Of a DNA stretch of 25,538 bases, positions 5,962 to 24,978 are shown one piece after another (the first letter of the stretch is position 1; each line of letters opens with the position of its first letter). This DNA is from a virus: positions 1-25,538 of the IMG/VR virus record IMGVR_UViG_3300031612_000063, one strand, 5' to 3'. The notes beneath the pieces are model-generated. The model saw only the letters and a program-made list of their open reading frames with translations. It was not told the origin of the DNA and did no database searches. Position numbers and translations under genes: made by a program.

Positions 5962-6591
5962 ATGGATTTAGGTAAACGAGTTAAAGCTCTAAGAAAATCT
6001 AAAGGCTGGTCACAAGAAGAGCTAGCAAGCCGAACATCAATGAGTAGAGGTCGAATAGGCCAACTTGAAACTAATCCGTTAGCAGAAGTTAAAGGTGCTA
6101 ATTTAGTTTCTTTAGCATCAGCATTGGGATTTTCAACTGAAAAGTTGCTATCAAAAGAAGAATTATTAGCCGTTGCAGGAGTAAAAACCAAGCCATTAAC
6201 AAGGAAAATTCCCATACTTTCATGGGTCTATTTAAGCAGTATCAATAAAGGAGAAAGTTTAATGCTTGAGAGTGATCGTTGGATAGGTTGTCCCGACGAT
6301 ATTGGAGAAAATAGTTTTGCCTTAGCGGTAGAAAATGATCTTATGACGAATAGTGTGGGTAGAAGTTACCCGGTTGGCTCATTTGTTTTTGTAGATCAGG
6401 ATAGACCCCCAAAGAGCGGTGACAGGGTTATAGCTGTTAACCGAAAGACTTTGGATTCAGTATTCAGAGAATACGTGATTGAGGGTTCAGTGAGTTATTT
6501 AAAGCCATTGAATCAACAATATTCAACTAAAGAGTGTGATGAACACACCGAAATAATAGGGGTTGTGGTCGGTAGTTATCTGGCTGAATAA
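5962..6591 (+). CDS. CI-like phage repressor, HTH plus degenerate S24 domain
   Basis: Residues 1-62 form an HTH_3/Xre domain (MDLGKRVKALRKSKGWSQEELASRTSMSRGRIGQLE). A linker follows, then a LexA/CI-type S24 C-terminal domain from about IPILSWVYLSS (83-93). A possible A-G cleavage site exists in the linker (AVAGVK, 72-73). The catalytic motif is altered. Where family members read V-x-GDSM, this one has VENDLM, which puts leucine at the serine position (L127). The expected lysine position in DSVFREY is a phenylalanine (F168). The protein should dimerise and repress but probably cannot cleave itself. It is divergent from the Cro-like gene, and its ribosome site is weak (a purine-rich AGAGAGAG about 12 bases upstream). 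Confidence 0.88.
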   Translation: MDLGKRVKALRKSKGWSQEELASRTSMSRGRIGQLETNPLAEVKGANLVSLASALGFSTEKLLSKEELLAVAGVKTKPLTRKIPILSWVYLSSINKGESLMLESDRWIGCPDDIGENSFALAVENDLMTNSVGRSYPVGSFVFVDQDRPPKSGDRVIAVNRKTLDSVFREYVIEGSVSYLKPLNQQYSTKECDEHTEIIGVVVGSYLAE

Positions 6592-7647: not shown

Positions 7648-8226
7648 ATGGATATTTTAAACCTTTTGTATATGCCGTTTACCAAAGCCGAAGTTGATTT
7701 TAGACAAGGCAGTGGCGGCAAAAGATTAGCTTACATTGACGCTCGAACAGTAATGAAAAGGCTTGATGATGTTATGGGTATTGATGGTTGGCAAGATTCT
7801 TATAAGTCTATTGAGAATAGAACAATCTGTGAACTTTCATTAAAGATTAATGGCGTTTGGATTACCAAGTCTGATGGGGCTGGCGACACTAAAATTGAAG
7901 GCGCTAAGGGCGGTATTTCAGATTCATTTAAACGTGCGGCTGTAAAATTTGGCATTGGTCGATACTTATATTATTTACCAAAGGACGTAAATTCTTTTGA
8001 CCAAATGCCTACTTGGGCACTGCAAAGCACAAAAAGAATAGATAAAGAGCTAATGCAAAGGGTCTTAATGGCATTAATAGAAGCCATTGAATCCGATGAT
8101 TCAGTGCAAGCTAAAGACGCATTAGAAGGTCTTTCTGAGCGTGAACAAAGTTTTATTTGGAGCATAACTAACAGTAAACAAAAATCAGCAGTTCATTCAT
8201 TAACATTTGAAGAGGTAGCAGCATGA
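7648..8226 (+). CDS. Rad52-family single-strand annealing protein
   Basis: It anneals complementary single strands during phage recombination, the role Red-beta, RecT or Erf fill elsewhere. The conserved core is clear. IDARTVMKRLDDVMGIDGWQ (30-49) is followed by CELSLKINGVWITKSDGAGD (61-80), then IEGAKGGISDSFKRAAVKFG (83-102) and IGRYLYYLP (103-111). This is the Rad52/Rad22 DNA-binding fold as found in phages. The C-terminal 80 residues are variable and acidic, perhaps a protein contact. At 192 aa it is typical. Its stop overlaps the next gene (ATGA), an SSB-like protein that is its natural partner. No exonuclease is seen next to it in the window. Confidence 0.85.
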   Translation: MDILNLLYMPFTKAEVDFRQGSGGKRLAYIDARTVMKRLDDVMGIDGWQDSYKSIENRTICELSLKINGVWITKSDGAGDTKIEGAKGGISDSFKRAAVKFGIGRYLYYLPKDVNSFDQMPTWALQSTKRIDKELMQRVLMALIEAIESDDSVQAKDALEGLSEREQSFIWSITNSKQKSAVHSLTFEEVAA

Positions 8227-8938: not shown

Positions 8939-9217
8939 ATGCTGGATCGTGTATTAATTAAAAAGTTTTGTGAGCAGTCAGGTTATAGTTATACGGCTGT
9001 TTACAAGAAATGTGTGACCGGGGTATTTACTGAGGGAAAAGAGTTTTTCCGCGCCCCCGATAACCATATCTTTATAAGCAAGTCGGGGTTTGACAAATGG
9101 GTAGCAAGTACGTTGGAATCAAAGCAAGGGCAGAATCTTCGATTGAAATCGGCTTCTCGTATAAGGGCTTATGGAGGCGCGAAACAATCCGCCTCAAACC
9201 TACAGCCGCTAACTTAA
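8939..9217 (+). CDS. Excisionase-like protein
   Basis: A 92-aa basic protein. LIKKFCEQSGYSYTAVYKKC and the following EGKEFFRAPDNHIFISKSGF resemble the winged-helix fold of small phage excisionases (MerR-like). Its place directly before the integrase supports this. The open frame extends to 8909, but the ATG at 8939 has AGGGGA 5 bases upstream. The reading frame overlaps the integrase gene by 121 bases in a different frame, which is longer than the usual few bases. Its C-terminal 40 residues are therefore constrained by the integrase N-terminus. Confidence 0.65.
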   Translation: MLDRVLIKKFCEQSGYSYTAVYKKCVTGVFTEGKEFFRAPDNHIFISKSGFDKWVASTLESKQGQNLRLKSASRIRAYGGAKQSASNLQPLT

Positions 9218-10302
9218 AACGTGCTGCCAACCACCGAGCGTCAATCCTACATGAGATTGACCTTGGTACTTTTAACTATGCGTTAGTCTTCCCCGAATCC
9301 CCTAACCTACATTTATTTGCCTCCGTAGAAGCTGACACAACTATAGAAGAAGTGTTAAAGAAATGGTACAAAGTTAAAGCCCCTCAATGCCATTCATCCA
9401 CGTTAGATGGATACCGAAAAATAGTCTTTAATCAATTAATCCCTCAGTTTGGTCATATTTCTGTGCATGAGTTTCGCGCTCACCACATGAGAGATTGGAT
9501 TATTAGTTGTACAAAAATGGGAAACAAGAGGATTCGGAATGTGGTATCTCCACTTCGTTGCGCTTTATCTCTTGCCGTTACAGACCAAGTAATTGAGAAA
9601 AACCATTTGCACCTATTTGTTTATGCCCGGTTAGAAACTGCCGCGCAAATAAAAGCTAGGGGCAAAAAACTTGATCCGTTTAACTTAGAAGAAATGAACC
9701 TAATTTTTGATACGGCAACAGGGCAAGAGCATAATTTATTTAAAACGGCTTTTTGGTCAGGCATGAGAACCAGCGAGTTATGCGCTTTACTGTGGGAAGA
9801 TATTGATTTTGTCATGGGTACTATTAAGGTGGATAAAGGTTTAACTATGGCGGCTGATGAAGCCGAGCCGCCTAAGACTATTGCCGGGGAAAGATTAATT
9901 AAAATGCTGCCTCAAGCAAGGAAAGCATTACTAGCCCAAAAAGAACATACTTTTTTAAATGGTCAAGAAGTATTTCACGACTCTTTGCATGGCAAGCCTT
10001 GGGTTGGTGATCAACCAATTCGTAAACGCTGGACTACTATTTTACGCAAAGCAGGGGTTCGTTATCGCAGACCATACCAAACAAGACACACCTACGCGTC
10101 CATGATGTTAACGTCTGGAGAAGAGTTAGGCTGGTTTAGCCGACAGCTAGGTCATAAGAATGTTAACGTCACTACTAGCATTTACGCACAATGGATAGAA
10201 TTAGCAGGCCATGATGGTGGAAGCTTAATAGATGCTAAATTCGGGGACGGGGGTTCGATTCCCCAAGTGGGAACTGAACCAATAAAGTTGATTAAAAAGT
10301 GA
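9097..10302 (+). CDS. int: Tyrosine-type site-specific integrase
   Basis: It recombines attP with attB and, with the excisionase, reverses the reaction. The N-terminal 70 residues (SKYVGIKARAESSIEIGFSY, then ETIRLKPTAANLKRAANHRA) form the arm-site-binding DUF3596 domain. A core-binding SAM-like domain spans about 80-165. The catalytic domain carries R224 (SGMRTSEL), probably K260 (PPKT), R330-H331 (QTRHTYAS), H353 (LGHKNV) and nucleophile Y363 (SIYAQW). Start 9097 is fixed by this domain even though it lies inside the excisionase frame. The last codons overlap a 19-base copy of the att T-arm sequence. Length is normal at 401 aa. Confidence 0.95.
   Translation: MGSKYVGIKARAESSIEIGFSYKGLWRRETIRLKPTAANLKRAANHRASILHEIDLGTFNYALVFPESPNLHLFASVEADTTIEEVLKKWYKVKAPQCHSSTLDGYRKIVFNQLIPQFGHISVHEFRAHHMRDWIISCTKMGNKRIRNVVSPLRCALSLAVTDQVIEKNHLHLFVYARLETAAQIKARGKKLDPFNLEEMNLIFDTATGQEHNLFKTAFWSGMRTSELCALLWEDIDFVMGTIKVDKGLTMAADEAEPPKTIAGERLIKMLPQARKALLAQKEHTFLNGQEVFHDSLHGKPWVGDQPIRKRWTTILRKAGVRYRRPYQTRHTYASMMLTSGEELGWFSRQLGHKNVNVTTSIYAQWIELAGHDGGSLIDAKFGDGGSIPQVGTEPIKLIKK
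10246..10264 (+). repeat. Second copy of the att T-arm sequence inside the integrase 3' end
   Basis: GACGGGGGTTCGATTCCCC matches 18 of 19 bases of GACGGGGGTTCGACTCCCC at 10381-10399, exactly 135 bases downstream. This copy is coding (GDGGSIP in the integrase tail) and lacks the CATCTCCACCA that follows in the main copy. It may be a relic of an earlier attachment site or a decoy core site. Confidence 0.6.
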
Positions 10303-12414: not shown

Positions 12415-12846
12415 TTAGGGCAGAGCTACCCAATTAGTAGTCGATTCATCCCACCTATATTCCCCCTCAGACGGCATGGCTGTTGGTGGTTTATATGCAC
12501 AAGTTGTTTCGTTAAATGTCCATGATGCCCAATTTGGAGCTATAGCCCAACTAGCCTTAACTTGGTTCTGTTTTTCTGTTTTCTCTGCGTCAGTCATTTG
12601 TAAAATATACCAAACGTCTGTAAATCCACTTTCCGTTGCTTCATATTCACAACCGCAACTTTCGTGACCATGTGATATATCAATCTTTTCATATACACCA
12701 ATAACTGGCTGCTCTACTCTAACAAAATGAGCAAACCCATCAGGTGCAGTTTCAAGATCATGGTCAGGGAATAACTGCCGCATGTTATCTTCGAGAATTG
12801 GATGTTGGTATGGTTGACCCTCGCGTATTTGTATAAATAGTGACAT
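12415..12846 (-). CDS. Tail fibre assembly-like / tail accessory protein (143 aa)
   Basis: The ATG at 12846 overlaps the adhesin stop by one base (TAATG), with AGGAG 7 bases upstream; a longer open frame to 12894 has no support. The N-terminus (SLFIQIREGQPYQHPILEDN) resembles proteins attached to phage fibres. The C-terminus (PNWASWTFNETTCAYKPPTA, then YRWDESTTNWV) is a W-rich motif shared by tail fibre assembly and tail accessory proteins. Following directly after an adhesin gene, it may be its chaperone. A minor tail protein is the alternative. Confidence 0.65.
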   Translation of the reverse strand: MSLFIQIREGQPYQHPILEDNMRQLFPDHDLETAPDGFAHFVRVEQPVIGVYEKIDISHGHESCGCEYEATESGFTDVWYILQMTDAEKTEKQNQVKASWAIAPNWASWTFNETTCAYKPPTAMPSEGEYRWDESTTNWVALP

Positions 12847-13874
12847 TACAAATCTCCTGTATTTGTTTGTGGAAATGAACGCCCTGCACCCCAAATTATA
12901 CGAACTGCCCCGCCCCCAGAAATGGTCATTCCTGCACCGCCATACGTGCCGCCACTAGAAGAACTGCCGCTACTGCCACCAGAACCACCACCGCCGCCTG
13001 TATTTGAACCTCCTGCACCATTAGACCCTTTACCTAGAATGCCAGTTCCGCCGCCTCCAAAGGCTCTGTAGTTGGTACGTGAGGCGCCGCCACCGCCACC
13101 TCCCCCCTCACCCGCACCACCATTTTGGTTATAATAAGTAGCGTCTCCACCACCCATACCCCCTCCCCCAGTGTAACCGCCAGCACCGCCACCGCCGCCT
13201 ATGCCACTGTATATCACGCCTGACGTCCCACCTTGACCACCTCCATCACCAACATAGCTACCTCCAGCTGTATAATCGCCGCCACCACTGCCTTTCATTC
13301 CACGAACTGTAGTGGGGCTATTAAAATATGAATCATTCCCTGAGTATCCACCCGCTGCGGCACCGACTACAACAGTGTAAGCAGTACCCGAGTTAACGCT
13401 GATATTATTCTTCCACCCCAGACCTGCACCTGAACCAGACCTGTACGCTTCGCCGCCATGACATGCGCCGCTTCCAATACAAACAACAGATACGCTAGAA
13501 ACCCCCGATGGAGGTACAAAAGAATATGATCCCGCTGTTGTATAAGCCTGTTGTCCTATAACTGGAACAGTGCTGCTATTATTTGAGTTAGCAGAAACAG
13601 CCCCTAGCGAGTTGGTAGCAGTAACTACGCATCTTATTGTACTGCCAGCATCAGCGGCAACAATCGTATAAGAACTAGAAGTTGCACTACCAAGGTTAGT
13701 TGAGCCACGCTGCCATTGATAAGTAAATGATGGCGCTGGTGCGCCTGTCCACGTTCCTGTCGAACTAGACAATGACTGACCGACTGACGCTGTCCCCGTA
13801 ACCGCTGGCGCATTAGTATTGACGGGCAAAGAGCCATAAGAGTTGCCGACAAATGCTAGATTTATGCCGCTCAT
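12846..13874 (-). CDS. Glycine-rich tail adhesin with Ig-like domain
   Basis: Residues 18-105 form an Ig-like fold (PAVTGTASVGQSLSSSTGTW, then YQWQRGSTNLGSATSSSYTI, then IRCVVTATNSLG). A beta linker (YTTAGSYSFVPPSGVSSVSV) follows. From about 180 to 325 the sequence is dominated by GGGGG-type runs broken by aromatic or polar residues (NGGAGEGGGGGGGASRTNYR). The end, GGAVRIIWGAGRSFPQTNT, is a motif common to Gly-rich phage tail-tip proteins. Such regions can form polyglycine type II helix bundles, as in the T4-like S16 gp38 adhesin. Receptor recognition is the likely job. It overlaps the previous fibre gene by 4 bases (ATGA). Confidence 0.75.
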   Translation of the reverse strand: MSGINLAFVGNSYGSLPVNTNAPAVTGTASVGQSLSSSTGTWTGAPAPSFTYQWQRGSTNLGSATSSSYTIVAADAGSTIRCVVTATNSLGAVSANSNNSSTVPVIGQQAYTTAGSYSFVPPSGVSSVSVVCIGSGACHGGEAYRSGSGAGLGWKNNISVNSGTAYTVVVGAAAGGYSGNDSYFNSPTTVRGMKGSGGGDYTAGGSYVGDGGGQGGTSGVIYSGIGGGGGAGGYTGGGGMGGGDATYYNQNGGAGEGGGGGGGASRTNYRAFGGGGTGILGKGSNGAGGSNTGGGGGSGGSSGSSSSGGTYGGAGMTISGGGAVRIIWGAGRSFPQTNTGDL

Positions 13875-16675: not shown

Positions 16676-19105
16676 TTAGAAGCTAATCGCTTTATTTAAG
16701 TCAGGAGATCGTCCCGGGGTAGGCTTCCCTTTGTCCCACCAATAATCTTGATTGTAATCTTTTTTCCTAGTTTTCATTTGCTTTTTAAATTTCTTTCTGG
16801 CTTTAGGATCAGCCATTTGTTGCATTTCATTTATAACCATTCGCTCAAATGCAAGTCGCGTATACCACAATGAGCCTGCCGGGAGGTTTTGTTGTGCAAA
16901 TCTTATAGCTTCACTACCAAGGTTCATATCCTCACCTTTAATGGCTTGTTGCATATTGCCTATAGTTAGCGTTGTAAAGCTATCTGCAAGGCCAGCGACC
17001 GGGCCAAGCAATGAAGTAACCGGGCCTTGACCAAATCGGTTTGCATCAGCAAATAAGAAGTCTCCAAATATACCAGCGCCACCACCTTGAAGAAACGCTG
17101 CACCAAAGAACTGAGGGGTGTTTGTATCCATAGGATCTCGACCCTTTGCAATTTCTTTAGCTTGCAGAGAAAGGCCACCCATTATCGTTGTAGATACCAC
17201 TAAGCTACCTAAATAAGAGCCTTTGCCCCTCCAGCCTTTTTGCTTTATTCCGCGCATTAAGTGAGTGGTCATTACAGTAATGGGGAAAGATTTAAACATA
17301 AACGCTGATCTGGATATTTCCCCCATAATGGTTCCGCTTCTTTGGCCCATTGTAGTAATAGCTCTAACCCTAGCGTCTGGTGTTGGAACTGCATAATCAG
17401 TCTCAGTCAAAACCATTTCTTGCACTTTAGTTGATAAGTCTATTTTCTGTCGCTCACTAAGATCAGAGCGAGACATTATGTTTTCAGCGGAAAAATACTT
17501 AGCCCCTTTATAATCTATGGCTTCGGTTGTTCTCATTATCTCCCAATCATCTGAGTTTATTCCATAACGCTTAAACCCTTTTTGTAAAGCAGGAGGCAGA
17601 TCATTAAACGATCTTGCGGCTTGGTCAGATATAAAAGAATGAAACTCCATGCCAAAAGCTTTACGGCCTGCGTCAGTCCAAGAACTAAGAAACGAGGCTT
17701 TCATTACAAAATCGGCAGCTTTTGCACTAAACCCTGATCCAGTTACTTCGGATTCTCTGTTAGCCGCTAATGCCCTTGTTGCCCAAGCGTCAGCCGTTAG
17801 CTGCATTTTTACCGCCATTAAACGATCGTCTGCGTTCTGTGGATTAAATAATGCCATTTGCCTAGCGATTACTTTATTGGAAGATAGGCCATTAAACTTA
17901 GAAGTTAGGCGTTGGAATGCGAGGTCAGATATTGCAGATAAGAATGCTCCACCCAATTTAGCAGACACTATTAAGCTACGAGAAGCTTTCATAAAATCAG
18001 CCATAACAATAGATTCAGCTTGATTAATTTTGCCAGATACAGTGTTCCATGTGCTTTCTAGTGTGCGTAAGTCATTACCTGTTGTGCCGTCTATCTTTGC
18101 CATATCTCGCAAAGTACGAAAAGCAGCCTCCGGGTTAGGGCCAAGCACTTCAAGCTTCGCTATATCTTGAGACATACTATTTAAGTGGTCAGTTAAAGTT
18201 GTGTATATGTCGTTGTGTCCATACTTGTCATGGTATTTAAGCCAAGCGTCACCATCTTTAAACATTAATACTCTGTGATCTTGCCGGGTGTTGGCTAACT
18301 TACTACCACCAGAAGCACCGGGAACCATATCAGACAAGCCATTAGTGGTAATCGTGTCATAAGCCTTATCCAGCATTAACTCCATTTCCAGATCGTTCAT
18401 AGGTTGCCCGGAAGAATTGAGCATTTTTTGACGATTAAGAAGCGGTTGTATCTCATCTTTCCACTTTAACTTTGACGTTCCCTTTACTCTTAGTGAGTCA
18501 TGGAATTGCGGCAAGCCCCATCCTTCTAACTTTTTTATGTCACCGCCTGCTTGATTAAATCTAACTCGGGCCGTTTCTGCTACCTGTGTCCATGTATCAG
18601 CGTGTTTTTTAGCTAAGGTGTTAGTTGTACCCTGCCCGAATAACTCACGAACCATATCCCTTAAGCCCTGTTGATCTTGCTTTAAGCCCATCATCTTTAA
18701 GCGATAGCTGTCCATTACTGGCGCAAACTCTGCATGAAAGGTTCCAAGTATAGCTTTAGCCCGGTTATCAATATTAGAGTATCCAGCACCCTCGCCCATA
18801 TCTTTAACCAGCAAAGCCATTACCCCATCCCCAAAGGTTCCAGAATGGTTTTTTGCGTCATTAACGGCCCGGTTCATTACAACGGCCTGTAGTGCTGTTT
18901 GTCTTTTTCTTAACGCGACTTCTTGAGCTTTAGCTTGGAGTGCTTTTTTCTCTGCCAATGGCCTAGCTTGCTTTATGTCCATCTTGCCATTAAGAGTTAA
19001 CTCCCGAGTAAAACCATCAATCTTATGCTGCAAGTCTAAACCTGTTTGCTCTTTGAGTAGGCCAGAAGAAATACCCCGGTCAATACAGTCGTGTAAATTA
19101 GCCAC
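16676..19105 (-). CDS. Large internal virion (ejection) protein, 809 aa
   Basis: A protein of the type stored in podovirus heads and injected with the DNA. The N-terminal half is helical and charged (ARPLAEKKALQAKAQEVALR), the middle holds a SASFLSSWTDAG-like segment (VMKASFLSSWTDAGRKAFGM) common to large phage virion proteins, and MGQRSGTIMGEISRSAFMFK and a hydrophobic stretch (LGSLVVSTTIMGGLSLQAKE) come later. The C-terminus is very basic (KKFKKQMKTRKKDYNQDYWW). It could help form the channel across the envelope, as T7 gp15/gp16 do. The start is GTG with AGGAGA 7 bases upstream, one base after the previous stop. Confidence 0.75.
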   Translation of the reverse strand: MANLHDCIDRGISSGLLKEQTGLDLQHKIDGFTRELTLNGKMDIKQARPLAEKKALQAKAQEVALRKRQTALQAVVMNRAVNDAKNHSGTFGDGVMALLVKDMGEGAGYSNIDNRAKAILGTFHAEFAPVMDSYRLKMMGLKQDQQGLRDMVRELFGQGTTNTLAKKHADTWTQVAETARVRFNQAGGDIKKLEGWGLPQFHDSLRVKGTSKLKWKDEIQPLLNRQKMLNSSGQPMNDLEMELMLDKAYDTITTNGLSDMVPGASGGSKLANTRQDHRVLMFKDGDAWLKYHDKYGHNDIYTTLTDHLNSMSQDIAKLEVLGPNPEAAFRTLRDMAKIDGTTGNDLRTLESTWNTVSGKINQAESIVMADFMKASRSLIVSAKLGGAFLSAISDLAFQRLTSKFNGLSSNKVIARQMALFNPQNADDRLMAVKMQLTADAWATRALAANRESEVTGSGFSAKAADFVMKASFLSSWTDAGRKAFGMEFHSFISDQAARSFNDLPPALQKGFKRYGINSDDWEIMRTTEAIDYKGAKYFSAENIMSRSDLSERQKIDLSTKVQEMVLTETDYAVPTPDARVRAITTMGQRSGTIMGEISRSAFMFKSFPITVMTTHLMRGIKQKGWRGKGSYLGSLVVSTTIMGGLSLQAKEIAKGRDPMDTNTPQFFGAAFLQGGGAGIFGDFLFADANRFGQGPVTSLLGPVAGLADSFTTLTIGNMQQAIKGEDMNLGSEAIRFAQQNLPAGSLWYTRLAFERMVINEMQQMADPKARKKFKKQMKTRKKDYNQDYWWDKGKPTPGRSPDLNKAISF

Positions 19106-19106
19106 C

Positions 19107-22100
19107 CTAATCTCCTAAGCAAATAAATAATGAATCAAGTGAGTCTTGTTCTTTTTCAATATCGTCAAAAGCTTCTCGCATTGTTTGAGTCTCTACGATT
19201 TCCTCGCCAGCCTCATTAACAACCACTCTTTTAGGCAGCAAAATGCCGTCACCATTAGAAGCTAGTAATTCACTAGCTGCGGCTAAGTCTTCGTCAAACA
19301 TATCTTTTAAATTGGGATCGTCTAGGTCAGACGCAATGGAATTGGCTAGTTGTTGCTCATCGTTAAGACTTGTGCGCCCCTGTACTTCTCGGCCCACTCC
19401 GAATCGTCTTGATACCCCTGTAAGATCACTTCCGTCATATCCAGCGTCAATGTTTCTTTCTTGGGTTCCAATAATTCTTTCTTGGATCTCTGTATGGGTT
19501 TTGCTTTCTTCATTTAATAATCCTCTTCGTTCAAGTACATTATACGCCTGTGTGTCCGATGGATCTATAAGTTTTGCGCTGCTTCCTGAGTTGTCAAAAA
19601 TCCTGGCACTATCAACCAGTTTTGCATACTCCGAATAAGAAGCATTAAAGCCTTTGTGAGCCTGCACCATATCAGGAACACGCGGTAATCTACCTGATCC
19701 ATAATAACGCTCTAAGGCTCTAATTAAAGCCTCTGACGGGTCTACAGTAACGCCAACCAACTCAACTCTATAACCATTAGCTTTAAAGTATTCGATTTGT
19801 TGAATTGCTTTTTTTTGATTACCCATAGTCTTGTCAACAATCAAATTCTTTCTACCGCTAACAGACAGATTTATTATCTCATTAGCAATCTCAGAACTTT
19901 CCTCATGCACAACCATTGCAGCCCTAAAATCTTTTTTATCCAAAATTATTTTATACTCGGGCAAGACTTCTTTAATGCCGTCCGGGTCTATATGAACAAA
20001 TCCAGACTTAGGGATTTCACCAGACTCTTGTAGCATTTTTAGAACACCACCTTTTCCAGAAGCCCCTCCACCTCCCATTAAAACCACAAGAGGCTTTTCT
20101 CCATCTTTAGCAGAAACGCCCTCATCCATAATTTTTTTCATTATGGAGTCATGTAAAATTGATCTTTCTTCTGTGTAAGAATCGTTAAGCTTGTATCTCT
20201 TATAAGTTTCGATGAGTAACTCATCACCCTCTTTAATAGTGGGGCCGAGCTCTGGATAACCAAAATTATCTTTATCTGGATTAATTAAATTGCGATCAAC
20301 TACAACCCTTGCAGTAAGTTTTCCTTTCTTGTCTTTAACAACCCTAAAAGATAACTCTGGCGAATCTTCGGGGATAACTGAGGGTCGAATAATGTTATCA
20401 GGTAATGATTCAATGTCTGTTACCGGGAATAACCCATCTTCGCGCGGTGCTTCATTTGCTTGTCTAGCCTCGCCAGCATCAACCCTTGTTCTATGTTTTT
20501 GAATTGCCTCTCGTTGAATGGCTGAGAAAATGTCGGCACTTGCTTTTTGTATTGACTCTCCAGATTTAAGTCTTTCTGCGGCTTGCTGTATTGCATCACT
20601 TACTGCCCCTTTTGTATTGGCTAACTTTGACAAGGCTACCATTGCGGCCTCACCATCTGCCACACGAACTAAGTTTTCATCCCGGTTAAGAACATTTCCA
20701 GCCGATTCAATACGACCACCTTGCTCATTTAAAACGCTAAAAGTTTGTCGATCACGCTTTACTTGCTTCATGGCGTGATCAATAACCCTTGCACGTTCCT
20801 TAAACAATGTTTCAGTTAAGGTCTGCCCACCGAATAAGTCCTCAGTCTCAGTACGCTGGAAGCCTGCCGCTTTCATATCTTGAACCATTATTCTTGCTTG
20901 GTTCAAATTGCTTGGCTTATGAATTGATAGCGCATTAATGATTGCAGATTGTTCATTTGAATCAGCAATTAAATCACCTACAATCGCACCATAACGAGCA
21001 TCGACCACATCGTTAATAACCGCTTTAAAAGCATCATCACCTAACTTAGATAGTCCTTGTGCATCACGCACTAAGACGCTACTAGGAGGCAGTGGTGACA
21101 TTCTTGACATACCATCAGCACCTAGCTCACGCAATACTTTAGCCGCGTCTATAGGCGTTCCTGTCCCTTCTGCAATGTTCTTAATTGCGGCCCTTTGTCG
21201 TGCATCAGAAGGTGTAACTCCATCAGTCTCTTTCCATACCCGGGCATTAAGTAAAACTTGTTCCGGGTCTTGACCAGCATCAAGAGCGCGATTAGCTAGT
21301 GCAAGCCTTTGGTGTCCATCAACAATGAACTGTTTACCATCGGCCCTTTCCCATACAACCACCACGCCTGCTAAATCAGCGTCCCATTCGTCAACACCTT
21401 TTAATCTATCTGTAACTCCGGCCTTATCGCCAGACGCTTTAAACTGAAATTGGTTAGCATCTACTGTGACATTTCTAGGATTAATAGATTCAATTTGCTG
21501 TCTGCCGTCAGACTCTAACCTAATATCATCAATTTCAGACTGAGTTATGGGTTTGCCTTTACTAGCGTTATCCATTGCCCGCTCTGTGACATTTAAGTGA
21601 GTGTTAATCTCTTGGGTGTTTTGAGGAAGAATATCATCCGCCAACTGTTGAGCGGCCTCATGTTCTTCCATTCCTTTTCTTAACTCAGGTGTATCAACGA
21701 TTTGACCAGACGATACCGCTTTTTTGTAAGCTGCGACTAAGCCATGACCAGCGCCCCGGAGCATTGCTGCGCCTGCGCCTGTGGTTAATACAATATTAAG
21801 CGCTTCTTGAAAGGTAGGCTCTCGACCTAACTCTTCTTTATATTGGTATGCGTTATACTGAATACCTGCCTCAGTAATCATGGCGATACTAGCATCCCAA
21901 CCCATCTTAGCTGCAATACCCCACTTTGCCGGGGGAGGGGCTAATACCATTGCTGCCACGTTTACCGGGTCAGTCATTGCACCGCCAGCAACGCCCATTA
22001 AGCCACCTATAACTCTCTGAGAAGGGTAGACTTGGCTGTATACTCTTTGCTGCTCTGCTTCTAATGCGTCAATGTCAGCATTAATAAAAGCCATGATTTC

Positions 22101-22463
22101 GTCACGATTAATAAAGCCTGCTTCTGGAAACTGCTTTTGTAAATCAGGGACAGAATCTAAAAAGTTTTCTGCCGTTGAAAGAAAAACAGCATTAAACTCA
22201 GGGCTTGTTTCGTCAAAGTTTTCAGACGGGCCTAGAAGGTTTGGCCTAGCAATGGTTAACTCTTCAACCTCTGGAAACATTTGTGGCGCATATTTTTTTA
22301 CAGCGTTCATGTTTTGAATGTGGTACTTGAGGAAGGAGTTGCTTCTTGAAGTAGATTTCTCTGTTGCTCCAAAAGCATCAAAATCAATTCCAGCTACATC
22401 AAGTGTATTACTAATGCCTGTAAATGGTTCACTTGTGTCTATATCTAAACGCCCAATACCCAT
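19107..22463 (-). CDS. 1118-aa internal virion protein with ParB-like and zeta-toxin-like domains
   Basis: Position and length mark an ejected virion protein. Residues 1-300 include hydrophobic segments (IGGLMGVAGGAMTDPVNVAA and MVLAPPPAKWGIAAKMGW). Residues about 328-450 form a ParB/DdrB-like domain; VVVVWERADGKQF then IVDGHQRLALANRA is the diagnostic box, with VTPSDARQRAAIKNIAEG behind it. Residues about 700-970 form a zeta-toxin/UNAG-kinase-like domain: YTEERSILHDSI (763-774), P-loop GGGGASGKGG (797-806), VHIDPDGIKEVLPEYK (823-838), LIVDKTMGN (874-882) and a lid with RALERYYGSGRLPRVP (915-930). The Walker A Ser/Thr is replaced by Gly. No antitoxin gene is adjacent. Domain calls are by pattern, not by search. 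Confidence 0.8.
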   Translation of the reverse strand: MGIGRLDIDTSEPFTGISNTLDVAGIDFDAFGATEKSTSRSNSFLKYHIQNMNAVKKYAPQMFPEVEELTIARPNLLGPSENFDETSPEFNAVFLSTAENFLDSVPDLQKQFPEAGFINRDEIMAFINADIDALEAEQQRVYSQVYPSQRVIGGLMGVAGGAMTDPVNVAAMVLAPPPAKWGIAAKMGWDASIAMITEAGIQYNAYQYKEELGREPTFQEALNIVLTTGAGAAMLRGAGHGLVAAYKKAVSSGQIVDTPELRKGMEEHEAAQQLADDILPQNTQEINTHLNVTERAMDNASKGKPITQSEIDDIRLESDGRQQIESINPRNVTVDANQFQFKASGDKAGVTDRLKGVDEWDADLAGVVVVWERADGKQFIVDGHQRLALANRALDAGQDPEQVLLNARVWKETDGVTPSDARQRAAIKNIAEGTGTPIDAAKVLRELGADGMSRMSPLPPSSVLVRDAQGLSKLGDDAFKAVINDVVDARYGAIVGDLIADSNEQSAIINALSIHKPSNLNQARIMVQDMKAAGFQRTETEDLFGGQTLTETLFKERARVIDHAMKQVKRDRQTFSVLNEQGGRIESAGNVLNRDENLVRVADGEAAMVALSKLANTKGAVSDAIQQAAERLKSGESIQKASADIFSAIQREAIQKHRTRVDAGEARQANEAPREDGLFPVTDIESLPDNIIRPSVIPEDSPELSFRVVKDKKGKLTARVVVDRNLINPDKDNFGYPELGPTIKEGDELLIETYKRYKLNDSYTEERSILHDSIMKKIMDEGVSAKDGEKPLVVLMGGGGASGKGGVLKMLQESGEIPKSGFVHIDPDGIKEVLPEYKIILDKKDFRAAMVVHEESSEIANEIINLSVSGRKNLIVDKTMGNQKKAIQQIEYFKANGYRVELVGVTVDPSEALIRALERYYGSGRLPRVPDMVQAHKGFNASYSEYAKLVDSARIFDNSGSSAKLIDPSDTQAYNVLERRGLLNEESKTHTEIQERIIGTQERNIDAGYDGSDLTGVSRRFGVGREVQGRTSLNDEQQLANSIASDLDDPNLKDMFDEDLAAASELLASNGDGILLPKRVVVNEAGEEIVETQTMREAFDDIEKEQDSLDSLFICLGD

Positions 22464-22465
22464 AG

Positions 22466-24556
22466 CTATTTATACTCCAACACAAAGTTTTCATTCCCGG
22501 ATTTTAAAGTCTGGTTATTCCACATTAAGTAGTAACGCCCCTGCTCTCCAAACGATCTAATTTGAATCGTATTACTGTCTATTAATGATTTAATGTATGA
22601 GGATGAATCTTGTATCTGCACTGTTCCCTCAGCCTGACTGAGATCAGAATAATTGGCAGCACGACCATTCTCAAATTCCTCATAAACTATAATACTTTGT
22701 TCAGTAATCCCCGTTATGCTGTCAAAGGTAGACACTGGTAAACTAAGCTTCCAAGTGTTCATATCCTTTTCAGTCATTGATCGCCTTGCAGGAAATGTAT
22801 AGTAATCTTCACTAAACATATTTCTACTGTCGCCTTTCATTTCTATAGGCTTTTGCATGACTAGATCCATAGCGTTATTCATGCGGTCTTCGTCTAAAAC
22901 TTTTCCATAATCGCCAACATCAGCCGACATTGAGGCGTATACATAACGAATATTTGCCATCATTCCCATGCGATAGTTAGCATCCCCTTGAGGATAAAGG
23001 CCCGACTTAGTAAACCTATCTTCAAATAAATCTGACATATCCGCTGTGCTTGGAAGTATATCTCCGGGCTTTAATTTCATTCCTTTGGTTACATGGTTTA
23101 CTGCCTCAGCACCATCTTCTTGAGCCATAAGCGTTCCTAAAATAACCTTGTCGTCAGACACTTTGCCTAAAAGGTTTTCTAGAACGTCATAAGACTTTTG
23201 CCCGGCTGCATCAATAAAACTACCTAAGAAATTAGAATCTTTTTTATTAATCATCTGAGCCAATAAGCTTGTGTCAGATTCAGAGAACAAGCTTGAATCA
23301 ATTCCCCACTGATCATCAAGACGGCCTTTTCTAATCTCCATTTCTTGAATAAAGGTTTTCAGATTATTATTATCTATAGCGTCTTGAAGCGTGTTTATTT
23401 GTGGTTTTAATATACCCATTTGTACTGCTGCTAATTGAGGGTCTTTTTTAACTAAACTCATTACACGCTCAATTGAAGTTGCCACAAACTGATTTTTCTC
23501 AGACTCTTCTAAGGTGTCTGCCAAGCCACCTAGCGCGGCTTGTTTCATAGAGTTGAGTTCTGCCATGCTACTTGAACTTATAGAATCACGCAGTTCTGAA
23601 CTCCAAGCTAAGGATTGAGCCATTTCTTTTTGAATTTCGGGGTCTGCGATCTCGTTAGCTATGGCTGTGAACTCGTCAATAAAAACGTCAGTAACTAACT
23701 GGCCCTCTTTTAATTGGTTAGCCATAGCCAAACCTGTTTTCTCAAGCCCTTTTTGTCGCTCCTTTTCAATTGCAACCACCGCTTTAGCTTCGATTCTAGC
23801 GTTAGTTAAATCCTGTTTTAAAAGAGTATTCATACGAGATTGCAAACTTAATTGCTCGTCTACTGGCATTTCAACCGGGGGGTTTTCAATAAAGCTATCT
23901 AAAAATGCTTGACCATCACCACTTGCTCTTTCAACACCAAAATCACTAGATACTTTAGCGGCCTGCCATTTTGATCTAAAGCTGTCATATTGGCTTTCCC
24001 CTTGGCTTGGGGTTACTACTGATCCGGCAACCTTAGATTCAATATCTGATCTAGCTCGATCTAGTCCATTTTCTAAGTCTAGCTCATAATGATTTAGGTT
24101 CTTTGTTAGCTCACCTTGCAAATGTTCTGTCTGCCTGCCTCGGTGAAAACTATTTACTTTACCTGTCATACTCAAGCTGTATTTTTCAACACTTTGGTTA
24201 TAAGCCACTTTAGATGAAGGAAAAGATAGATTCTCCCTATGCTTACTAATTAGTCCTTCCATGTTTTTTTTAAACTGATCTTGTATACCGCCATAGGTAG
24301 GCTTGCCATTAGCATCATAAGCATCAGAATCTTGAAGTGATTGCATTAAGGCTTGAGTGTCTTTTTCCAATCCTATAGAAGCGGAGTGCATTTCTGCTTC
24401 TTGTTCGGCCTTTTGAACTTTAGCCTCATAATCACCGACAACTTTAGTCAGTGCTTGGGTTGTTTTCATCTTGGCTTGAGCCGCAGAAGATATAGCGCCT
24501 AAACTTATCTGCTCTGCCCCGGGTACACCTGTTTGACTTATTCCTTGGATTCTCAC
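22466..24556 (-). CDS. Internal virion protein, 696 aa, coiled coil
   Basis: Begins with a GTG that overlaps the preceding stop (GTGA). The first 100 residues (GAISSAAQAKMKTTQALTKV, then EAKVQKAEQEAEMHSASIGL) are a long amphipathic helix or coiled coil typical of podovirus gp15-like internal proteins. The remainder is mainly helical with no enzymatic motif, and the end turns beta-rich (EQGRYYLMWNNQTLKSGNEN). It lies between the gp14-like gene and the 1118-aa effector-like gene, so together these make the ejected core. Relation to T7 gp15 is by position, not by clear identity. Confidence 0.7.
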   Translation of the reverse strand: MRIQGISQTGVPGAEQISLGAISSAAQAKMKTTQALTKVVGDYEAKVQKAEQEAEMHSASIGLEKDTQALMQSLQDSDAYDANGKPTYGGIQDQFKKNMEGLISKHRENLSFPSSKVAYNQSVEKYSLSMTGKVNSFHRGRQTEHLQGELTKNLNHYELDLENGLDRARSDIESKVAGSVVTPSQGESQYDSFRSKWQAAKVSSDFGVERASGDGQAFLDSFIENPPVEMPVDEQLSLQSRMNTLLKQDLTNARIEAKAVVAIEKERQKGLEKTGLAMANQLKEGQLVTDVFIDEFTAIANEIADPEIQKEMAQSLAWSSELRDSISSSSMAELNSMKQAALGGLADTLEESEKNQFVATSIERVMSLVKKDPQLAAVQMGILKPQINTLQDAIDNNNLKTFIQEMEIRKGRLDDQWGIDSSLFSESDTSLLAQMINKKDSNFLGSFIDAAGQKSYDVLENLLGKVSDDKVILGTLMAQEDGAEAVNHVTKGMKLKPGDILPSTADMSDLFEDRFTKSGLYPQGDANYRMGMMANIRYVYASMSADVGDYGKVLDEDRMNNAMDLVMQKPIEMKGDSRNMFSEDYYTFPARRSMTEKDMNTWKLSLPVSTFDSITGITEQSIIVYEEFENGRAANYSDLSQAEGTVQIQDSSSYIKSLIDSNTIQIRSFGEQGRYYLMWNNQTLKSGNENFVLEYK

Positions 24557-24978
24557 GTTATCTTACCCCACCAATCATTCTTGTTGCCTATGTTGCCTAC
24601 GTTAGAAATAAGCAAGCTTTCACCTTGGCTGCTCATTGCGCTAGCCTGCGCAGAAGCACCAGCGCGTCTAGCTGAGGCGGTTCTTGCACCTTGCTGTGCT
24701 GTGAAATTCATTTCATTTTCTGCCACATTAGCTGCCTCAGCCATAACCGCAAGAGTAGAAACGCTACCAATATCCACGCCTGCTTTAGCATAAGAAACAA
24801 CTCTTTGCCCTTGCTCTTGTTGATATTTATACCTAGTGCGCCTTAATCTTTCTTTTGTTTCTAACTCACTTAGTTGTGCATTCTTTTCGCCTGCTTCTTT
24901 CATATCAGAAGACGCGCTCTGAGAATCGCTAAATTGCTTCACTGCCCCTGCGATTTGCAGAAAAGTCATAAAACTCAT
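24553..24978 (-). CDS. gp14-like internal virion protein
   Basis: A 141-aa protein with the composition of T7 gp14-family core proteins. The first 20 residues are hydrophobic (MSFMTFLQIAGAVKQFSDSQ). The middle is rich in charge and Ala (ELETKERLRRTRYKYQQEQG). RVVSYAKAGVDIGSVS followed by an Ala-rich helical tail (GARTASARRAGASAQASAMS) ends near GNIGNKNDWWGKIT. In podoviruses this gene precedes the larger internal proteins, as it does here. gp14-like proteins insert in the outer membrane during ejection. Confidence 0.75.
   Translation of the reverse strand: MSFMTFLQIAGAVKQFSDSQSASSDMKEAGEKNAQLSELETKERLRRTRYKYQQEQGQRVVSYAKAGVDIGSVSTLAVMAEAANVAENEMNFTAQQGARTASARRAGASAQASAMSSQGESLLISNVGNIGNKNDWWGKIT

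Follow-up and report, generated by a model that had tools for sequence, protein, structure and literature searches.

A probable phage ejection protein carrying a zeta-fold kinase as exchangeable cargo, and a conserved cysteine pair shared with its neighbour

Results

Protein A and its gene neighbourhood

The viral DNA analyzed corresponds to positions 1 to 25,538 of the IMG/VR record IMGVR_UViG_3300031612_000063, and the whole of this 25,538-nucleotide stretch is referred to below as the window. Its minus strand contains a reading frame, open throughout from 22463 down to 19107, for a protein of 1118 amino acids (aa), hereafter protein A, in which a helical N-terminal domain, a ParB-like module, a kinase domain with the fold of the zeta toxins and a short tail with a single cysteine follow one another (Table 1). 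The gene is surrounded by virion genes, PHROG matches identifying a tail protein, a member of the internal virion family phrog_418 and a phrog_684 virion structural protein, hereafter protein B. This agrees with an earlier note, made from the letters of this DNA alone, which had located protein A within a block of virion-protein genes. The same note had remarked on the lack of an adjacent epsilon-type antitoxin, and indeed no epsilon/PezA antitoxin gene adjoins protein A, both neighbours being genes of virion type.

Protein A follows the genes for the tail protein and the internal virion proteins and precedes a gp17 homologue, which is the position of gp16 in phage epsilon15. The gene order matches epsilon15 gp13-gp17 and that of podoviruses annotated with internal virion proteins. 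Protein B is homologous to epsilon15 gp17 (7e-23 by tblastn, 5.7e-119 by profile), and the N-terminal profile of protein A matches Vibrio K300 gp18 at 7e-17. In epsilon15, gp15 and gp17/16 were attributed to the injection device by earlier genetics, which a cryo-electron microscopy paper cites (PMC12391199). Because of this assignment, and of its gp16 position, protein A is very probably an ejection protein; gene position and scaffold suggest that it is present in the virion and injected. The match of protein B to T7 gp16 was weak, and homology between the two was dropped; local hhalign comparisons, which gave equally high probabilities for all targets and nonsensical alignments, were discarded.

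The zeta-fold kinase

The Pfam family Zeta_toxin matches residues 786-961 of protein A with E=2.3e-34, far from a chance match. A profile built from ten relatives matches, among Protein Data Bank (PDB) entries, zeta (1gvn, 3.7e-16), PezT (3.3e-14) and AvrRxo1 (2.4e-10). The same three are the top Foldseek matches (zeta, 6.9e-7) of an AlphaFold model of protein A built with 30 sequences, in which the block means of the predicted local distance difference test are ~86-97 over residues 750-920, the kinase; Pnkp1, UMP/CMP kinase and T4 polynucleotide kinase match less well. Residues K804, D826, D828, K831, H853, E855, D877, T879, R915, R919, R925 and D957 are invariant in the ten relatives, and the kinase is likely functional. 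The zeta-toxin-like domain of the earlier note is thus found by Pfam, PDB profile and Foldseek alike. The motif positions given there, with LIVDKTMGN beginning at residue 874, are right to within one residue, the ParB-like box lying at 381-392 instead of 382-393; the lid RALERYYGSGRLPRVP begins at 915.

The substrate is a different matter. The segment equivalent to EGTxR of zeta and PezT reads DKTMG in protein A, with KTMG (878-881) at the position of GTXR, a motif needed by zeta/PezT for binding UDP-N-acetylglucosamine (UDP-GlcNAc; PMC6362051), and the alignment of relatives shows no close-family member in which the arginine is restored. UDP-GlcNAc, which the earlier note had named as the substrate of zeta toxins, is therefore an unlikely substrate. 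In NCBIfam, XopAJ/AvrRxo1, a family of nicotinamide adenine dinucleotide (NAD) kinases, outranks PezT for the window domain at 1.9e-8, with a score of 33.9 bits that does not reach the family cut-off of 300. AvrRxo1 is reported to have the ATP site but not the UDP-GlcNAc site, and to phosphorylate NAD (PMC5087710).

The ParB-like module

No Pfam ParB match was found in protein A, and no significant PDB sequence match for this part of it. Among PHROG families the module matches phrog_10691 at 1.2e-58, and the ParB-like phrog_1033 at 0.04 only. Foldseek returns Noc, a member of the ParB family (6e-4), and ParB itself (~7e-3), and residues D382-G383-H384-Q385-R386 of the box VDGHQRLALANR are invariant among relatives. 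The presence of a ParB-like domain, already proposed in the earlier note, is supported by the modelled structure more than by sequence. The comparison of an AlphaFold model with zeta and ParB structures, put forward there as a check, has yielded both zeta/PezT and Noc/ParB.

An exchangeable slot

Relatives were gathered by scanning viral contigs with protein B and with the ParB module. The zeta domain alone, used as query on viral contigs, retrieved only three relatives; the ParB module is found in 92 complete ones, with distinct slots in 72. They follow a constant plan, made up of an N-terminal domain of ~330 aa, a ParB module of ~340 aa, a slot whose length varies from 0 to ~590 aa and a tail of ~40 aa, the phrog_684 gene lying directly downstream. 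A few giant outliers (P-SCSP1f, S31-C1, and loci L122, L126 and L149) share the ParB module only. In ~60 further loci, N-terminal-domain profiles match upstream neighbours of phrog_684 genes (366-810 aa) that lack both ParB module and cargo, and finish in a similar cysteine tail. Because these neighbours share the two ends of protein A, the ParB module and the cargo are read as insertions into a smaller protein.

Slot contents were classed for 67 non-identical proteins. A zeta-type kinase is found in 31/67, a second type of cargo in 21/67, nothing in 11/67, another unknown domain in 3/67, and a second ParB-like domain in one (1/67). The second cargo, which has no Pfam name, resembles Tas1 (6ox6), a (p)ppApp synthetase effector (PDB profile 3.1e-18; Foldseek 6.3e-8, further small alarmone synthetases coming next). 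It features an invariant Glu within GEIQ, and is carried by L142, L103, L111 and L079 among others, not by the window protein. Scaffolds are 97.3% identical between L141 (zeta) and L142 (Tas1-like), and 97.7% between L073 (no cargo) and L079 (Tas1-like); L161 and L162, with scaffolds 89.8% identical, are a further case of cargo exchange. That near-identical scaffolds hold different slots argues most strongly for the kinase being cargo rather than part of the structure, and to judge from these identities the exchange of cargo is recent.

Some slots stand apart. The extra small ParB-like domain found in one protein (L101:7033-7707) also matches the Pfam family 'Antitoxin VapB-like' (E=1.8e-6). 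The third cargo type (L147:7024-8388, L153:6970-8256, L167:6985-8313) has no Pfam match and, in L153, no PHROG match either. A Hyphomicrobiales contig encodes a cysteine-free protein of 2569 aa (L205:2402-10108) with both a ParB module and a zeta-type domain.

Lone cysteines on both sides of the A-B gene boundary

Protein A and protein B contain one cysteine each, C1115, four from the end of the former, and C7 of the latter. The two genes are adjacent, and often overlapping, in relatives. Cysteines were counted in 108 non-identical adjacent A-B pairs, the downstream proteins falling into 15 clusters at 50% identity. The tail cysteine of A is found in all pairs (108/108), the head cysteine of B in 104/108. 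One of the four exceptions is a frameshift, the cysteine being in the other frame; the other three have a single cysteine at residues 71-73, consistent with an N-terminal extension. The pair is also found in epsilon15 (gp16 C629 of 634 residues, gp17 C5), in phiV10 and K300, in 11/11 further divergent phages, and in all nine split pairs (9/9) that bacterial genome contigs provided. A few A proteins (L194, L196, L208) have extra cysteines. Cysteine makes up 0.11% of A and 0.13% of B, against a mean of 0.4% in other long reading frames of the same loci. Among proven ejection proteins, T7 gp15 and gp16 and P22 gp7, gp20 and gp16 have no cysteine; epsilon15 gp15 has two.

One genome contig (L206/L217) encodes a natural A-B fusion of 2812 aa, recognized by its N-terminal domain (7.6e-41), ParB module (4.8e-88) and B part (2.5e-131), and this chain contains no cysteine at all. 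Since the cysteines at facing ends co-occur in split pairs and are absent from the fusion, a C1115-C7 disulfide joining A to B end to end, in the place of a peptide bond, is predicted as the most likely arrangement. Other cysteine-free giants (P-SCSP1f, L122, L126, L173, Ruegeria 45A6, L195, L197, L200, L202, L205) were left out of the A-B fusions, homology to B not being demonstrable. T7 gp14, epsilon15 gp14 and related small internal proteins carry their only cysteine at residue 2 (L190:29-619, L178:2587-3129, L175:1928-2473, L009:3314-3967), which the 141-aa protein of the window lacks.

Other genes of the window

The window also encodes an S24-type repressor, a Rad52-like recombinase and an integrase (5962-6591, 7648-8226 and 9097-10302), from which the phage is probably temperate. 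A predicted tail-region protein of 342 aa (12846-13874) contains long glycine runs.

Table 1. Positions in the window of protein A, its modules and motifs, and neighbouring virion genes
Feature	Position	Strand	Residues or size	Remarks
Protein A, modular, predicted ejection-type	19107..22463	-	1118 aa	N-terminal domain, ParB-like module, zeta-kinase cargo, C-terminal Cys tail
Conserved helical N-terminal domain	21513..22463	-	~1-317	Found also in relatives without ParB or cargo
ParB-like module	20406..21500	-	322-686	
ParB-like box VDGHQRLALANR	21288-21323	-	381-392	
Zeta-fold kinase cargo	19581..20108	-	786-961	
Walker A GGGGASGKG	20049..20075	-	797-805	K804
DPDGIK	19971..19988	-	826-831	D828 aligned to zeta catalytic Asp67
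DKTMGN	19818..19835	-	877-882	Replaces UDP-GlcNAc motif EGTxR
Lid RALERYYGSGRLPRVP	19674..19721	-	915-930	R915, R919, R925 invariant
Conserved C-terminal tail	19110..19244	-	1074-1118	Beta hairpin and helix
Sole Cys of protein A	19119-19121	-	C1115	
Protein B, phrog_684 virion structural protein	16676..19105	-	809 aa	Epsilon15 gp17 homologue
Sole Cys of protein B	19085-19087	-	C7	
Protein at epsilon15 gp15 position	22466..24556	-	696 aa	No Cys
Internal virion protein (phrog_418)	24553..24978	-	141 aa	No Cys

Discussion

The sequences themselves display the modules, the preserved catalytic residues, the swapping of cargo and the arrangement of the cysteines. These are best accommodated, with somewhat better than even confidence, by a modular ejection protein of a short-tailed, probably temperate marine phage, a podovirus, that would be joined to protein B by a disulfide and would carry the kinase as an effector acting on a nucleotide-type compound. 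The N-terminal domain and the cysteine tail would represent a constant delivery scaffold, the ParB-like module a semi-constant part, the kinase the exchangeable cargo. Packed in the head, A and B would exit ahead of the DNA or with it, behaving as a single chain in the virion and through the oxidising periplasm; the reducing cytoplasm could open the bond and release A. The kinase, present in few copies, would then act before phage genes are transcribed, most likely by phosphorylating a host metabolite of nucleotide type (NAD or an adenine nucleotide, not UDP-GlcNAc). That a very widespread group of podoviruses makes one chain of two ejection proteins by a single disulfide, which lasts through virion and periplasm, opens in the cytoplasm and frees the half with the swappable enzyme (a zeta-type kinase with a substrate other than UDP-GlcNAc, a Tas1-like alarmone synthetase or another), is a more tentative proposal, for which the chances seem a little short of even. 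As to purpose, host shut-off, counter-defence and exclusion of rivals are all conceivable. The injected effector proposed in the earlier note is retained in part: the kinase is cargo in a protein of the ejection block, has kept its catalytic residues and is swapped for another enzyme of antibacterial-toxin type, while the action on UDP-GlcNAc finds no support.

Several observations weigh against this picture. Sequence homology between protein A and epsilon15 gp16 is not significant (the phiV10 homologue p19 matches at E ~0.4), and the virion location is deduced from gene position and scaffold. The giant chains L149 and L207, with one cysteine each, are weak counter-examples to the cysteine rule, and homodimeric disulfides or other thiol chemistry would yield much of the same pattern. 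A kinase delivered in small numbers might fail to exhaust its metabolite, and an enzyme damaging the host at entry could hurt a temperate phage.

Among other explanations, the one that fares best, though it seems doubtful, is that the cargo, instead of being a general poison for the host, is aimed at rivals, disabling elements that co-infect or already reside in the cell, or counters a host defence based on nucleotides (e.g., NAD-dependent). The rapid exchange of cargo on near-identical scaffolds fits an arms race, and a part in conflicts of this kind has been proposed for polyvalent proteins (Iyer et al. 2017, PMC5512222); any target would be conjectural. Somewhat less probable is the formation of A-A and B-B dimers by the single cysteines, or their binding to a metal or another partner. 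Sequence reveals the positions of the cysteines, and the partner is not deducible from it; but the residues sit at the ends by which the two genes adjoin, and often overlap, and co-occur in the pairs examined, and both are missing from the sole A-B fusion that homology establishes. It is rather unlikely that the domain, next to a ParB-like module, is a polynucleotide or nucleotide kinase repairing or priming the incoming DNA, or supplying nucleotides. It belongs to the P-loop kinase superfamily, has the weaker matches to nucleic acid and nucleotide kinases mentioned above, and accompanies a fold that often binds DNA and nucleoside triphosphates, but zeta and AvrRxo1 match better, and the slot also accepts an alarmone synthetase, which has no role in DNA repair. 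Least probable is a true zeta toxin phosphorylating UDP-GlcNAc and weakening wall synthesis during entry, one of the actions considered in the earlier note. The fold and catalytic Asp/Lys do agree with zeta and PezT, and the same role is suggested for MuF-fused zeta domains (PMC5512222), but GTXR is absent and AvrRxo1, likewise devoid of it, is an NAD kinase.

The injected effector of the earlier note is a new case of a known proposal, that of Iyer et al. 2017 (PMC5512222). There, polyvalent phage proteins were proposed to be injected; zeta-like kinases fused to MuF, as well as RelA/SpoT and DdrB-like ParB domains, were named among their parts, and a weakening of the wall was suggested. Shared features are the combination of unrelated enzyme domains in a single large protein encoded beside virion genes, and the domain types themselves (zeta-like kinase, RelA/SpoT and, less surely, DdrB-like ParB). 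The protein described here differs in being of the epsilon15 gp16 type, its two ends being constant and a single slot exchangeable, and it showed neither a MuF nor a metallopeptidase domain; the cysteine pair is absent from the accessible account. The minor head protein P0004 of cyanophage PSS2 (L010:4795-9294), also in a virion-gene context, associates MuF with a zeta-type kinase 33% identical to that of the window, and has thus a MuF scaffold in the place of an ejection-protein scaffold.

The zeta and PezT toxins (1gvn, 2p5t) share with protein A fold, Walker A, catalytic Asp and lid arginines. Protein A differs from them in lacking GTXR and an epsilon antitoxin, and in having the kinase embedded in a virion-type protein. 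AvrRxo1/XopAJ (4z8q), the best NCBIfam match, is likewise a zeta fold without the UDP-GlcNAc motif, but is delivered by another route, and the kinase of protein A falls far under the family cut-off. Epsilon15 gp16-gp17 share gene position, the gp17 homologue and the same two cysteines, gp16 (634 aa) being much shorter than protein A; in T7, gp16 is a single cysteine-free chain. No published report of a disulfide in ejection proteins was found, coverage of subscription journals being limited. As far as the searches reach, the epsilon15-type exchangeable slot, the swap of zeta-type and Tas1-like cargo between near-identical scaffolds, the missing UDP-GlcNAc motif and the cysteine pair are new.

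Injected multidomain phage proteins become with these data a testable system, in which a constant delivery scaffold has one cargo slot, and near-identical natural pairs differ in cargo alone. The occurrence of zeta-type kinases and Tas1-like synthetases in the same slot suggests that phages draw on poison enzymes also used by the systems with which bacteria compete. If the cysteine pair does form a disulfide, it would provide a simple rule for holding, and perhaps releasing, two ejection proteins, for which epsilon15 would be a laboratory model.
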